Below are positions 8,974-16,675 of a stretch of 35,908 nucleotides of DNA, piece by piece. The position numbers and the translations under genes were made by a program. Positions within the stretch are counted from its first letter, which is position 1. Each line of letters begins with the position of its first letter. Source of the stretch: Flavobacteriaceae bacterium (GTDB lineage Bacteria > Bacteroidota > Bacteroidia > Flavobacteriales > Weeksellaceae). Location of the stretch: assembly GCA_031276535.1 (NCBI GenBank), contig JAISMV010000087.1:1-35908 (forward strand), given 5' to 3'. The notes below the pieces were generated by a model. It was not told the DNA's origin. It did not search any database and saw only the letters and a program-made list of their open reading frames with translations.

Positions 8974-9110
8974 ATGAAACTAACCGAACGGGTATCAAAA
9001 CCAAGTACAGCCCTTGAATGGGATGTGATCCTTACCAGAGGAAGAGTATCCGTTGATCTGGTGCGGCTATAGATGCCATAACCGGAAAATACTTATGGGT
9101 AAGCTATTAA
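8974..9110 (+). pseudogene. glpD: Decayed N-terminus of aerobic glpD
   Basis: From ATG 8974 the frame reads MKLTERVSKPSTALEWDVI, a typical GlpD start leading into the FAD-binding fold. It then loses the glycine-rich loop and stops at 9070-9072. In the next frame from 9057 the sequence reads SGAAIDAI, which continues the expected WDVIxxGGGxSGxGAAIDA pattern of flavobacterial GlpD. It then stops at 9108. A small deletion plus substitutions have thus destroyed the Rossmann motif, and the rest of the gene is gone. The remnant now forms the leader of glpK. This suggests an ancestral glpD-glpK-glpF unit. Confidence 0.6.
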
Positions 9111-9154
9111 TTAGACGATCAAAAAATAAAATAATTAACTAAAATCAAAAAAAA

Positions 9155-12480: not shown

Positions 12481-12834
12481 CACCTTTTATGGTAATTCTC
12501 ATTTTTCCGCAAAAATTATCCCAAAATATCCGTTAAAACGTACCTAAATGAACATTTTAGGATCTTTTCAATTCCAACCCGGTTTGAAAAATAGAAAAAG
12601 AGAGAAAATATTTGGTGAAAAGGAGAATTTTTCGTATCTTTAGGGTATAGAGTGTTCCGTACCTCGTCCCAGAGGTGGTTTTTTGACCTGTCGTATTCTC
12701 CATTTTTTTCGGTTAGTATACCTGAGACTACCTGACTCAGGTTACTTATTTTATAGGTTAATGTTATTTTTCCATCATTTTGTGAAAATAAAAATCATGA
12801 CACTTTATGAGGATATTCAGAAGAAATATCCCGA
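12481..12834. other. Intergenic region with a promoter-like site and small hairpins
   Basis: TTTG at 12611-12614 and TATCTTTA at 12635-12642 are 20 bases apart, a near-consensus plus-strand promoter. Downstream lie a short hairpin ACCTC/GAGGT followed by six T (about 12660-12682). Next comes ACCTGAG/CTCAGGT with a nested palindrome ACCTGACTCAGGT (about 12720-12743). A 38-codon frame (12798-12913, MTLYEDIQKKYPDQKY...) runs antisense into the end of the repressor gene and is probably not a real gene. No recognisable product. Confidence 0.4.
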
Positions 12835-13185
12835 TCAGAAATATTTCTTCTTCAACATACTTATTATTTCTCTTTGTGTGGCAAATACTTCTTCAATTAA
12901 AGAGTCCTCCTGATTATTATCTTTAACGACATCAGAAGCGCCGGTTTTCGTTTTATCCTGTAACATATCGCCATTTCCGGTAAGTAACCAGGTAGGATTT
13001 AATTCGGGAAAAGCGACTAATATTTTTTCAATAGTATCCGTATGCAATCCTGTTTTATTTCTTCTGGCCCTTCCGATTAATCCTACGGACAACCCTGCCA
13101 GCTTAGTAATTTTATTATCATTGATATTCTTGTGTTGCATAAACTCAAGGAGCCTATCTATAGTTGTTTCACATTTGTTTTCCAT
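12835..13185 (-). CDS. Short XRE/cI-like helix-turn-helix repressor
   Basis: The 116-residue product has an N-terminal XRE-type helix-turn-helix (about residues 6-65). It is followed by FPELNPTWLLTGNGDML, a phrase typical of Bacteroidota phage- and island-type repressors. Those usually continue into an S24/LexA-like peptidase domain, but here the protein ends with a short acidic, helical tail, so self-cleavage is not expected. It is divergent from the coiled-coil gene at 13336 and the space between holds a perfect 7-3-7 palindrome, a likely operator for both. It is probably the regulator of this accessory pocket; what it controls is unknown. Confidence 0.8.
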   Translation of the reverse strand: MENKCETTIDRLLEFMQHKNINDNKITKLAGLSVGLIGRARRNKTGLHTDTIEKILVAFPELNPTWLLTGNGDMLQDKTKTGASDVVKDNNQEDSLIEEVFATQREIISMLKKKYF

Positions 13186-13228
13186 AACATAAAGAATTAT
13201 ACTGTTTGAATATAGAAAAAATAATATA

Positions 13229-13245
13229 TTTGTATAGAATACAAA
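13229..13245. promoter_or_regulatory. Palindromic operator between divergent genes
   Basis: TTTGTATAGAATACAAA is a perfect inverted repeat with 7-base arms and a 3-base centre. It lies 44 bases upstream of the repressor start and about 90 bases upstream of the divergent coiled-coil gene. Size and symmetry fit a dimeric XRE repressor site, probably for autoregulation. Confidence 0.65.
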
Positions 13246-13335
13246 GGTAAAAAAAAATAATAATATTGAAAATTGTCAAAACTAAATATTTATATTTACG
13301 CTGTGAATTTTTAACATTTATAACTCTCTTCGATC

Positions 13336-14013
13336 ATGATAAAAGGTGACTTTTTAGACAATATAATAGCTATTTTTCAGGAAAATGAAAGATTCGAGCA
13401 TGTTGACTTTAAAATAGACATTAATCACGGCACAGTGAGGATAGTATATCTTGTTGAGCCTGAATATCATATAACGTTTCAAGATAAGAATCATTTTAAA
13501 GAAAAAGATGAAAATGCCGAATATGATATTTCGGGAGAGGCTATTCCCGGTGAATTTTCATTGCACGAACATTTCACATTAACCCGCAAAACCGATGTAT
13601 ACGCCAAAGTAAAAAGCTGGCTGGATATTATATGGAAGGAAATATCATTGACCTCACCTCTGGGGCTGTTGGAGAAAGAACAGGAACAAATTGATCAGAT
13701 CTGTGAAAAATTCGATTCCTACGAAGACCATTTTACCACGGAAGAAATACTGAAAATAAAGGTGGAATTGAATGCTCTGGAAAAAATATTGGAACAGGAG
13801 ATACTGGACCTTGTAGGAGATACCGAAATTCAAAAGAAAGAATTAGAAAAATTACATAGTCATTTCAAAATGTTAGAACAAATTTTACCTTCTTTGAAAA
13901 AGAAAGGATGGATTAGATGTTTGACAGGAAGAGTCCTTCACAATGTAAAAAGAATTTTAAAGTTGAGACAAAAACTCATTTTAAACAATTCCAATCCTCA
14001 TAAAAATACATAA
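13336..14013 (+). CDS. Orphan protein with C-terminal coiled coil (225 aa)
   Basis: I do not recognise this family. Residues 1 to about 95 look like a compact alpha/beta domain (a helix, then FKIDINHGTVRIVYLV and further strands). Residues about 108 to 215 are strongly helical and charged, with heptad-like spacing of Leu/Ile (for example KVELNALEKILEQEILDLV), ending in a basic segment (VKRILKLRQK). No signal peptide, membrane helix or catalytic motif is seen. The ATG at 13336 is the first in frame. A TATATTTA box near 13288-13295 may be its promoter. It is divergent from the XRE repressor, and the repeat-RNA unit follows about 240 bases after its stop. That context suggests an accessory or island function, but no role can be claimed. 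Confidence 0.65.
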   Translation: MIKGDFLDNIIAIFQENERFEHVDFKIDINHGTVRIVYLVEPEYHITFQDKNHFKEKDENAEYDISGEAIPGEFSLHEHFTLTRKTDVYAKVKSWLDIIWKEISLTSPLGLLEKEQEQIDQICEKFDSYEDHFTTEEILKIKVELNALEKILEQEILDLVGDTEIQKKELEKLHSHFKMLEQILPSLKKKGWIRCLTGRVLHNVKRILKLRQKLILNNSNPHKNT

Positions 14014-14050
14014 AAAATTTGCGTTGAGCACAATAATATGCCTGCATAAA

Positions 14051-14245
14051 TATATATAGAAAAAAATCAATCTTTATAGTGAAAGACGAGTATAATTTTT
14101 TTTAATATTTGAAATGAATAATTTTCCTTGAAAAAAAACATTTTTTTTAATAATTTTTTAAACTTATAACTTATTGAAATTCAGCATTTAAATAAAATTT
14201 ATATTTTAAATGTCAATATTTTTTCATTATATATAGAAAAAAATC
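14051..14245. repeat. Pair of 18-bp direct repeats upstream of the repeat RNA
   Basis: TATATATAGAAAAAAATC occurs at 14051-14068 and again, identically, at 14228-14245. The second copy ends 10 bases before the -33 element of the repeat-RNA promoter. The DNA between is very AT-rich and holds no gene. It may be a protein-binding or duplication scar. Confidence 0.55.
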
Positions 14246-14254
14246 TTAAAAATA

Positions 14255-14286
14255 TTTGGTTTGTTAGAAAAAAGTCTATAACTTTG
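14255..14286 (+). promoter_or_regulatory. Strong Bacteroidota-type promoter of the repeat RNA
   Basis: TTTG at 14255-14258, a 20-base spacer and TAACTTTG at 14279-14286 match the TTTG/N19-21/TAnnTTTG consensus fully. Transcription would start near 14293, directly before the repeat array, with no start codon of any extended frame following. Confidence 0.75.
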
Positions 14287-14319
14287 CATTCAAATAACGA
14301 GAGTTATATTAAAAAGGGC

Positions 14320-14835
14320 TTAATTAACACTAAAAAACTTGAGAGGACAACTTCCTTATTAAAAACACTAAAAAACTTAAAAGAGCACTTTTTATTAAAA
14401 CACTAAAAAATGAATAAGGGCTAAATTAGTTAACACTAAAAAACGAAGAAAGAAACTTTTTATCAAGACACTTAAAAACTGAAAGAGAGATTAATTAGCT
14501 AACGCTGAAAGACCGAAGAGAACATCTTTTTATTAAGACACTAAAAACTGAAGAAGAATTAATTAGCTAATACCGGAAGACAGAAGAGAGCAACTTTTTT
14601 ATTAAGACATTAAAAAACTGAAGAAGAGTTAATTAACTAACACCGGAAGACCAAAGAGAGCAACTTTTTATTAAGACACTGAAAAACTGAAGAAGAATTA
14701 ATTAGCTAACACTGAAAGACCGAAGAGAGCAACTTATTATTAAGACACTTAAAAACTGAAGAAGAGTTAATTAGCAAACACTGGAAGACCAAAGAGAGCA
14801 TCTTATTTTAAACGTTAAAAAGTTTAGTTTTTTCA
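14320..14835 (+). repeat. Tandem array: ~69-bp units made of two ~34.5-bp half-units
   Basis: Units begin with TTAATTA(G/A)CTAA or a variant at 14320, 14422, 14491, 14559, 14629, 14698 and 14767, with spacings of 68-70 from the second on. Each unit splits into two related halves with the core ACACTnAAAnACnGAAGAnGAG. Cores or variants lie at 14327, 14365, 14400, 14433, 14468, 14502, 14538, 14570, 14607, 14640, 14676, 14709, 14745, 14778 and a degenerate one at 14812. From 14468 on they alternate between longer (mostly 36-37) and shorter (mostly 32-33) spacing. Differences are scattered point changes, and there are no unique spacers. The first units are the most diverged. Confidence 0.9.
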
Positions 14836-14871
14836 TTAAGCACGATTAATTAGTGTAGTATTTATTTATTG

Positions 14872-14902
14872 AAAAGTCACCTTATCTAAGGTGGCTTTTT
14901 TT
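14872..14902 (+). terminator. Intrinsic terminator of the repeat RNA
   Basis: AAAAGTCACCTT (14872-14883) pairs with AAGGTGGCTTTT (14888-14899), including one G-T pair, around a tight loop. A run of seven T follows. It lies about 40 bases after the last recognisable repeat half-unit. Confidence 0.85.
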
Positions 14903-14909
14903 GTTTACA

Positions 14910-14950
14910 GACACTATCTCATAAAGTGTGTAAGTTAAAAAAGTTAAGGT
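14910..14950 (-). mobile_element. Possible IS256-type terminal remnant
   Basis: Read on the minus strand the segment contains AACTTACACACTTTATGAG followed by ATAGTGTC. It resembles the terminal inverted repeats of IS256/Mutator-type elements as I remember them. No transposase and no second end are present nearby. Recognition is from memory of the family, so this is tentative. Confidence 0.3.
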
Positions 14951-15050
14951 ATGGATTATAATCTGAGCCCGTATCCTGTACAAAACTTGTGAGATAAGCA
15001 AATAATTTCGTTAGTCTGAACAAGAAGAAACAAATTAGCTTTCGGATTTA

Positions 15051-15092
15051 GTAGCGGGAACAGGACTCGAACCTGTGACCTTCGGGTTATGA
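15051..15092 (-). other. 3' half of initiator tRNA (possible att scar)
   Basis: On the minus strand the sequence starts at the CAT anticodon (TCATAACCCGAAGGTCACAG...) and continues through variable loop, T-arm (GGTTCGAGTCC) and acceptor 3' strand (CCCGCTA). This is the 3' half of an initiator tRNA-fMet. The 5' half is absent: sequence left of the anticodon does not form a D-arm or acceptor. Such 3' halves are classic att footprints of tRNA-targeting integrases. No integrase gene is in the window. Confidence 0.65.
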
Positions 15093-15181
15093 TTATCAAT
15101 AAGTTACACTTTAAATAAAATTATATATACCTAATTTAAAAGCCTTTTACTAAAACTACTGATATAATAGAAAAACTATTA

Positions 15182-15371
15182 GAGCCTGTTTAAATTTTAT
15201 TGCGATTATTTTTTATTGCTATTTTGAGATGGATTTTTTGCTTTTTATTTGAAGATTTAGCGGGCTAAATCAAGAAGAAAAAGTGAAAAAGACGCTCAAA
15301 AGAGCTTAAAAAGAATGCAAAATATAATTAGACCCTAAAAATAAATAGTTGAATAAAATTTAAACAGGCTC
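15182..15371 (-). repeat. MITE-like 190-bp element, copy 3 (inverted)
   Basis: A full-length copy with perfect 20-bp ends GAGCCTGTTTAAATTTTATT and AATAAAATTTAAACAGGCTC. The internal palindrome GATTTAGCGGGCTAAATC is at 15254-15271. Its orientation is opposite to copies 1 and 2. Flanking triplets are TTA on the left and TAA on the right, so a direct target duplication is not clear here. Together with copy 2 it brackets the accessory pocket in inverted orientation. Confidence 0.85.
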
Positions 15372-15504
15372 TAAAATCAATTCCCTGAAAATAGAACATT
15401 TAAACCGGTTTTCTTTTTACGGTATACCCCCTCTGAAAAAAGTTTTGGGAAAAGGTTATCTCACTTTCGGATAATCATTTTAAAAATAAAAATAAAAAAA
15501 AGAG

Positions 15505-15534
15505 TTTGATTTAGAGCGAAAAAAACTAATTTTG
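15505..15534 (+). promoter_or_regulatory. dnaN promoter
   Basis: TTTG (15505-15508), an 18-base spacer and TAATTTTG (15527-15534) form a good Bacteroidota promoter, 25 bases before the dnaN ATG. Confidence 0.7.
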
Positions 15535-15559
15535 TAATCATTAAGAAAAAAATTCATAT

Positions 15560-16675
15560 ATGAAATTTATAGTTTCAAGCGGAGAATTACTAAAAGCATT
15601 ACAGTTGATAAGTGGAATCACAGGAGGAAATTCTTCCCTTCCTGTTTTAGAAAATTTTTTATTTGATCTGGATTCCAACAAGCTGACAATTTATGGTTCT
15701 GATGGAGAAACCACCATGAAAACCAGTATTGAAGTACAAAGTAATGATAAAGGAAAGATTGCCGTTCCCTCCAAATTATTAACAGATACCGTAAAAACTT
15801 TTTCCGAACAACCCTTATCCTTTTCTCAGGAAGGAACCCAGTTGGAAATTGTGGACGAAAAGGACAATTATTTCATTGCTCTGGATGATGTAGAACAATA
15901 CCCTTCAATACCTGAATTGGATACAGATAAATCCATCACCATAAAGGCTTCCGTTTTAGCCGAGGCTATTGCCAATACTATTTTTTCCACCGGTAATGAC
16001 GCCATGCGCCCGGTAATGACCGGAGTATTGTTTCAATTTACAGATTCAGAATGTCGTTTCGTGGCTACCGATGCACACCGTTTGGTGAAATATTCCCGTA
16101 AAGATGTTTTATCAAATGAAAATGTAGAATTCATCATGCCTAAAAAACCTCTTACTTTGTTGAAAAATGCTCTAATTGCTTACGATGATGAGGTTACTAT
16201 TGATTTCAACGAAACCAATGCACGGTTCACTCATAATGAAACACAATGGGTATGTCGTTTAATAGATGGAAAATATCCTAACTATGACGCCGTTATTCCT
16301 AAAGAAAATCCGAATGTTCTAACTATAAACCGTCAACTTTTTTTAGGCTCTTTAAAAAGAGCATCTTTGTTTTCAAATAAATCTACCTCACAGGTTAGTT
16401 TAGCCCTGAACGGGAATTTACTGAAACTAAGCGCCGAAGATTTGGATTTTGCGAACAAGGCAGACATGAGCCTTCCTTGTGACTTTAACGGAGAAGAGTT
16501 GAAGATCGGTTTTAATTCCAAATTCCTGAATGAAATGCTAACTAACATTTCTTCTGAAGACATAACTCTGGAGATGTCAACCCCGAATCGGGCAGGGATT
16601 ATCAAACCTATAGACGGACTGGACGAAAATGAGGATATTCTGATGTTGGTGATGCCCGTAATGTTGACTAATTAA
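15560..16675 (+). CDS. dnaN: DNA polymerase III subunit beta (sliding clamp)
   Basis: This is the ring-shaped clamp that tethers DNA polymerase III to the template. The 371-residue product matches the three-domain clamp. The N-terminal segment is MKFIVSSGELLKALQLISG, followed by the conserved NPLPVLENFLF-like run, VATDAHRLVKYSR in the middle domain and IDGKYPNYDAVIP. The C-terminal tail MLVMPVML is the clamp signature. Length and frame are normal. It has its own promoter and is not next to dnaA. pheT follows after an 84-base gap. Confidence 0.97.
   Translation: MKFIVSSGELLKALQLISGITGGNSSLPVLENFLFDLDSNKLTIYGSDGETTMKTSIEVQSNDKGKIAVPSKLLTDTVKTFSEQPLSFSQEGTQLEIVDEKDNYFIALDDVEQYPSIPELDTDKSITIKASVLAEAIANTIFSTGNDAMRPVMTGVLFQFTDSECRFVATDAHRLVKYSRKDVLSNENVEFIMPKKPLTLLKNALIAYDDEVTIDFNETNARFTHNETQWVCRLIDGKYPNYDAVIPKENPNVLTINRQLFLGSLKRASLFSNKSTSQVSLALNGNLLKLSAEDLDFANKADMSLPCDFNGEELKIGFNSKFLNEMLTNISSEDITLEMSTPNRAGIIKPIDGLDENEDILMLVMPVMLTN

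Follow-up and report, generated by a model that had tools for sequence, protein, structure and literature searches.

A tandem repeat array in Apibacter predicted to encode a multi-site sponge for a conserved small RNA

What would a bacterium do with a tandem repeat that has a promoter and a terminator of its own? The question is raised by a locus at 14255-14903 of the window, which is the whole 35,908-nt stretch of DNA analysed here. A sequence-only reading had offered three roles for its RNA, namely a sponge for an RNA-binding protein or small RNA, a scaffold, or a guide-like precursor, and the small-RNA sponge is the one picked out by our analysis, given that a gene for the partner small RNA (sRNA) exists and that the repeats run antisense to the head of that RNA. 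We conclude that the locus probably makes a non-coding multi-site sponge (decoy) RNA for a conserved trans-acting sRNA, a reading drawn from what sequence comparison provides: an sRNA gene, its antisense relation to the array, two types of site, a conserved locus with its promoter core, and a motif enriched before start codons.

The array and its transcription unit

The array is real and lies, in an Apibacter genome, within a predicted transcription unit of its own. The Bacteroidota-type promoter of the earlier reading (TTTG, 20 bases, TAACTTTG) was found as described on the plus strand at 14255-14286, with the TTTG box at 14255-14258, TAACTTTG at 14279-14286 and 20 bases between them, and its core is conserved in seven orthologous loci. 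The strong intrinsic terminator was also recovered (14871-14903, plus strand), as a hairpin of 13 pairs at 14871-14900 followed by a T run, which ranks first of the 10 terminator-like hairpins in 12500-16500, where shuffles average 1.7. With ends placed according to these two signals, the predicted RNA would be about 611 nt long (14293-14903, plus strand); its predicted fold has a z-score of -1.63, and 2 of 20 shuffles folded equally well.

The repeats span 14313 to about 14811. Consistent with a tandem array, TRF reported a period of 69 nt at 14364-14811 (6.5 copies, 83% matches), besides a 38-nt period at 14326-14410, and 15 anchor positions were located between 14326 and 14777, spaced by 32-38 nt in 12 of the 14 intervals. 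Of the earlier statement that the array starts 65 bases after the start of the promoter, the promoter stands but the array start does not, as the array starts earlier, with its first antisense unit at 14313, which is 26 nt past the -7 box.

Two other explanations for the repeats were rejected. A protein-coding repeat is ruled out by ORF content, a single 40-aa frame at 14284-14406 being the one plus-strand ORF of at least 20 aa that overlaps 14250-14910, and a CRISPR array, which would have near-identical repeats with unrelated spacers, is ruled out by the fact that the entire 69-nt unit repeats, at 83% matches. In Rfam searches one tRNA was the only match above the gathering score in the whole window and the array region had none, while three sub-threshold matches around the terminator were found in 14200-15560, none of them above the gathering score.

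The unit is flanked by the gene of a 225-aa protein (13336-14013, plus strand) and by dnaN (15560), about 660 bp off. Between array and dnaN there is a MITE-like element with 23-bp perfect inverted repeats 150 nt apart (15179-15374), and a minus-strand stretch at about 15049-15090 resembles by eye a lone tRNA 3' half, for which ARAGORN makes no call.

A small RNA gene antisense to the repeats

A DNA search of 60 related genomes showed that positions 14313-14340 (28 nt) have a perfect match elsewhere in the genome of the window (contig C109:6071-6158). The same 28 nt match exactly in genomes G002, G005 and G006, and G001 has a 36-nt match at 94% that contains them. All these matches are one locus, a small gene of about 77 nt that is antisense to the array repeats and in which a TAnnTTTG box is followed by a head of some 45 nt and then by a terminator of the form CCCTTTC...GAAAGGG. 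The predicted sRNA is present in eight of the nine Apibacter genomes (E<=3.5e-25) and is almost invariant, with a seed (UUUUUUAGUGUU) identical in all eight, and the ninth genome, G004, gave a weak match only (5.2e-4). At all eight loci it has the box and the terminator and sits between genes read as trxA and lipB. In the one case folded (G000, with a few promoter bases attached), most of the head is left single-stranded, and its 5' end forms a weak hairpin of 5 bp. Five of the loci were compared with Rfam and had no match above the gathering score.

An exact-pattern scan of 84,980 species, a collection possibly lacking the window's own genome, had five hits (Apibacter mensalis, A. adventoris, A. 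muscae, an uncultured Apibacter and a Flavobacteriaceae MAG), and the exact sRNA core had one chance-like match among viral contigs. A family-wide search gave matches at E<=0.001 in 61 of 296 genomes, nine in the genus and 52 outside. One locus was inspected in each of nine of these 52: four share the terminator hairpin only, four have the hairpin plus a stretch like the seed region, and in the ninth the match is short and lies where a gene ends. In four genomes of genus g20 (L026, L028, L035, L045), such a stretch and terminator (AAAGTTTTTTA...ATAATTAATCCCTTTCA) lie beside the end of a gene read as gcvP, and may represent a distant sRNA relative or chance. No match to Hfq was found in any of the nine Apibacter genomes, so that pairing would either rely on another chaperone or need none.

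The position of the sRNA, 203-245 nt upstream of the start of the lipB-like gene and on the same strand at 8/8 loci, allows for a reading in which the effector would be the array RNA, with the sRNA as its antagonist, or in which the sRNA locus is merely a terminated lipB leader. We regard this as improbable, since the sRNA has a promoter box and terminator of its own at every locus, and since the motif found before start codons (see below) has the sense of the array, so that the sRNA, and not the array, can pair with it.

In the array, the earlier reading had seen some 15 copies of a purine-rich motif; the copies are there, but the description was too weak, as the unit is the reverse complement of a specific sRNA. 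On the plus strand, a long first antisense site (14312-14361, -51.2 kcal/mol) combines the 28-nt perfect match with a second helix and is followed by a second antisense site that pairs with sRNA nt 2-40 (14363-14397, -27.4 kcal/mol) and by a seed-only site (14398-14412, -13.1 kcal/mol), these first 100 nt being less regular than the later periods. The periods from 14415 onwards, 69 nt each, combine a near-full-length antisense site of about 50 nt, which has an internal loop and pairs with about sRNA nt 2-53, with a seed-only site of about 16 nt, which pairs with nt 25-40. The long sites lie at 14415-14464 (-37.2 kcal/mol), 14484-14535 (-30.5), 14552-14604 (-24.4), 14622-14673 (-29.5), 14691-14742 (-32.6) and, as the last of them, 14760-14808 (-25.0), and the seed-only sites at 14466-14481 (-13.1), 14536-14550 (-12.3), 14605-14620 (-14.7), 14674-14689 (-17.1) and 14743-14758 (-13.1), with a degenerate 3' site at 14810-14857 (-17.5). 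The seed is covered at 13-15 of the 15 sites.

Pairing of this extent was not reproduced by controls. Fifteen sites of the array pair with its own sRNA at -12 kcal/mol or lower, summing to -358.7, versus seven sites (-111.6) for the reversed sRNA and a mean of 5.6 (maximum 10) for 100 mononucleotide-shuffled sRNAs. The mean energy was -19.0 kcal/mol, compared with -10.0 for 300 dinucleotide-shuffled sRNA heads, none of which reached the real value. Among 40-nt windows, -18 kcal/mol or lower was reached by 14 of 27 in the array, by 3 of 1767 in the rest of the plus strand and by 1 of 1794 on the minus strand, and the 13 best-pairing windows of the 36-kb plus strand are all inside the array. In silico, the array RNA is predicted to pair with the seed region of the sRNA, as sponge RNAs do.

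Repeats in an untranslated RNA, with dnaN nearby, could also be sites for a protein, as in CsrB, or iteron-like DNA sites, the sRNA match being chance. We give this reading very little weight in view of the 28-nt perfect match and of pairing energies far beyond those of shuffles; moreover, there are only four GGA in the 611 nt, and six relatives have another gene, read as tig, in place of dnaN downstream of the unit.

A possible though less probable alternative, which overlaps the sponge reading, is that pairing mainly destroys the sRNA, or that the array is cut into free antisense units. Near-full-length duplexes could be substrates of RNase III, and sRNA nt 21-24 are left unpaired in nearly all sites (paired at 0-1 of 15). 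The seed-only sites, however, are ill-suited to the cleavage of long duplexes.

Conservation and site number in Apibacter

The unit was found at the same locus in seven of the nine genomes of the genus, namely that of the window, G001, G002, G003, G006, G007 and G008. A promoter core, TTAGAA.AA..TCTATA..TTTG, is invariant in the seven aligned loci, whose alignment has 30 invariant columns; the upstream TTTG box varies. In the six relatives the neighbour protein gene is followed by the promoter core and then by a unit of 168-350 nt that ends in a hairpin; these terminal hairpins were chosen by eye, and those of G003, G006, G007 and G008, which start, also by eye, with GAAAA(A)GTCA, are similar to that of the window, with different ones in G001 and G002. 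Whether relatives keep promoter and terminator had been proposed as a check on the locus, and all six retain the promoter core and a terminator-like hairpin, an outcome that favours the earlier reading.

The 225-aa neighbour (13336-14013), which serves as the syntenic anchor of the sponge locus, was detected by homologue search in seven of 100 genomes of the family, all in this genus, and also in G005. It has a conserved C-terminal TGRV.HN motif and belongs to no known family; the window protein had no Pfam match at E<=0.001, and its homologues gave weak, inconsistent matches only. The G005 locus is cut short where its contig ends, and no array unit was seen there, and in G004 the neighbour protein was not found, a lipB search of that genome, also without a match, being uninformative.

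At a cut-off of -10 kcal/mol, the window has 15 sites, G001 two, G002 three, G003 six, G006 two, G007 seven and G008 eight. When each unit was compared with dinucleotide shuffles of its own sRNA, none of 300 reached the real value in G002, G003, G006, G007 and G008, and 10 of 300 did in G001. With the reversed sRNA, at -12 kcal/mol, the contrast is clear for G002 (three sites to one) and G007 (six to two), and for G008 (six to four) it is clear in energy; it is small for G003 (five to four) and G006 (a tie, two to two), and absent for G001, with one site (-33.0) versus two (-33.7). In the G007 array just 2 of 16 40-nt windows reach -18 kcal/mol.

These differences in site number bear on whether the locus is a one-site anti-sRNA gene, with one or two functional sites, that expanded passively, the extra tandem copies being due to neutral slippage. 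G001, G002 and G006 have only one to three sites at -12 kcal/mol, and in the window the first unit is the strongest (-51.2 kcal/mol), the later long units being weaker (-24.4 to -37.2). The changes between units show no single pattern: by count, A to G leads (42 of 143) and preserves a G-U pair, but A is the most frequent base as well, and per base G positions change more often. Against passive expansion, the units are about 83% alike, too few matches for recent duplicates, and even so the pairing energies of the eight longer sites lie between -24 and -51 kcal/mol; in addition, G003, G007 and G008 have six to eight sites at -10 kcal/mol with differing spacers. We therefore consider neutral expansion unlikely. 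If the locus encodes a multi-site sponge, the capacity of the array would be set by the number of sites, 2 to 15 across species at the -10 kcal/mol cut. Because related species carry 2-3, 6-8 and 15 sites, the dependence of an sRNA-circuit threshold on site number would be open to a direct test at this locus.

In G002 (L067, about 1100-1300), a degenerate second short sponge unit can be seen by eye upstream of the intact one.

Candidate mRNA targets and known sponges

Outside sRNA genes and arrays, seven genomes have 94 distinct occurrences of the complement of the seed, AACACTAAAAA, and 33 of them lie 6-50 nt upstream of an ATG that opens a reading frame of 60 aa or more, versus 5-6% for control words. 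The 94 are distinct contexts, one duplicate repeat copy in G003 having been dropped (33/95 if kept), and sites in orthologous leaders are not independent. Strict control words of the same composition, in 400 kb of G007, gave 57/965, and those ending in AAAAA 3/132; a looser control, which allowed G or T as the eleventh base, gave 73/1528. In the same 400 kb, two shorter words were weakly enriched before ATG (CACTAAAA, 6/33; ACTAAAAA, 10/100), and several words of 8 to 11 letters were not (TAACACTA, 0/13; ACACTAAAA, 0/5; TTAACACTA, 0/5; AACACTAAAA, 0/4). In 200 kb from each of two genera that lack an sRNA match, the 8-mers gave 0/16 and 0/40 in G028 and 1/19 and 3/24 in G009, none significant at these small counts. 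The enrichment lends in silico support to a candidate target code of the sRNA, with the G004 count given below standing against it.

Two genomes stand outside the 94. In G005, three of 15 sites were inspected and one lies before an ATG. In G004, where the sRNA was not found, two of eight AACACTAAAAA sites are 21-23 nt before an ATG (L098, L200), a similar share; if the sRNA is truly absent there but the leader motif is kept, the target reading would be weakened. This is also what favours a variant of the protein or DNA-site reading, as improbable as the rest of it, in which AACACTAAAAA is an independent leader motif.

From translations read by eye, the 33 sites represent about 20 gene families, among which yegP/DUF1508 recurs in six genomes, DUF937-like and response-regulator-like genes in four each, and two more families in two each. 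Pfam confirmed catalase, DUF1508 and carbonic anhydrase, and the DUF937 match fell just below the cut-off (24.8 vs 25.4 bits). No more than 2 of 200 shuffles equalled the leader duplex in 6 of 8 cases for yegP1, 1 of 6 for yegP2, 3 of 6 for katA and 1 of 1 for carbonic anhydrase, in genes that were picked from sRNA matches and so do not make a blind test. For yegP, 14 of 20 matches were taken in, six weaker G007 paralogues being omitted; the carbonic anhydrase leader is that of G002, three further matches being omitted; and the katA copy of G004 was omitted, its genome having no detected sRNA. Both katA and yegP1 leaders lack pairing in G001 and G002. A role for katA as a general target was rejected, as clear pairing was seen in 3/6 leaders only, and no catalase match was found in the window's own genome.

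In the mechanism that we propose for the sponge, both RNAs would be made, and the sRNA would pair with mRNA leaders near the start codon and block translation, the putative repressed leaders being those of yegP, DUF937-like and response-regulator-like genes, and of catalase in some species. The approximately 15 tandem sites of the array would base-pair with the 5' head of the sRNA from the trxA-lipB interval, so that one array transcript could capture several sRNA molecules and the mRNAs would be freed.

In animal microRNA sponges such as ciRS-7, a long non-coding transcript repeats imperfect binding sites for a single small RNA many times over. The array resembles ciRS-7 in having repeated imperfect sites for one small RNA and differs in being linear and bacterial, with no Argonaute and no relation by descent. 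Multi-site sponges for one small RNA are, to our knowledge, an animal feature or a laboratory design, and we know of no evolved bacterial gene dedicated to this. We lean, by a modest degree, towards seeing here a bacterial counterpart of ciRS-7, that is, a dedicated natural tandem-array sponge with alternating near-full-length and seed-only sites and a dial-like site number, which would buffer a start-codon-proximal regulon in a genus with no Hfq detected.

Among bacterial systems, SroC, the chbBC spacer, AgvB and tRNA-derived sponges are RNAs that pair with an sRNA seed, and the array would be expected to free mRNA targets by seed pairing as they do (PMC8383071). In the part of that source available, known sponges derive from mRNA, tRNA-precursor or phage transcripts, with no dedicated tandem array among them, whereas the array has about 15 sites in a stand-alone unit. 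CsrB, with about 18 sites, titrates a post-transcriptional regulator through repeated motifs (PMC8383071). The array is like CsrB and RsmZ in carrying repeated motifs in one RNA, but its ligand would be an RNA; membership in that group was rejected, as the four GGA of the array RNA are not the many GGA in hairpin loops that characterise it. In the literature covered, which left subscription journals mostly outside its scope, no paper recognisable as dealing with sRNAs of Apibacter, or with a tandem-array sponge for an sRNA in any bacterium, was among the matches listed.

As for the partner sRNA, the accessible text on Rfp18 of Flavobacterium psychrophilum describes a trans-acting sRNA with a structured pairing loop and protease targets and mentions no sponge (PMC9723704); the Apibacter sRNA would likewise be flavobacterial and trans-acting. 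GibS of Bacteroides thetaiotaomicron combines a terminator with a 5' region that is conserved and single-stranded (PMC7366714). The partner sRNA has a similar plan; GibS is longer (about 145 nt) and has extra hairpins. The analysis also adds to Apibacter a predicted sRNA that is absent from Rfam and whose candidate target code can be read, no Hfq having been detected in this lineage.

A further arrangement was seen in G005 (C221, about 9030-9150, minus strand; L048/L072), where a leader with six ACACTAA and some degenerate copies directly precedes the start codon of a gene for a putative secreted protein; this leader may be a target of the sRNA, or it may be an mRNA-borne second sponge.
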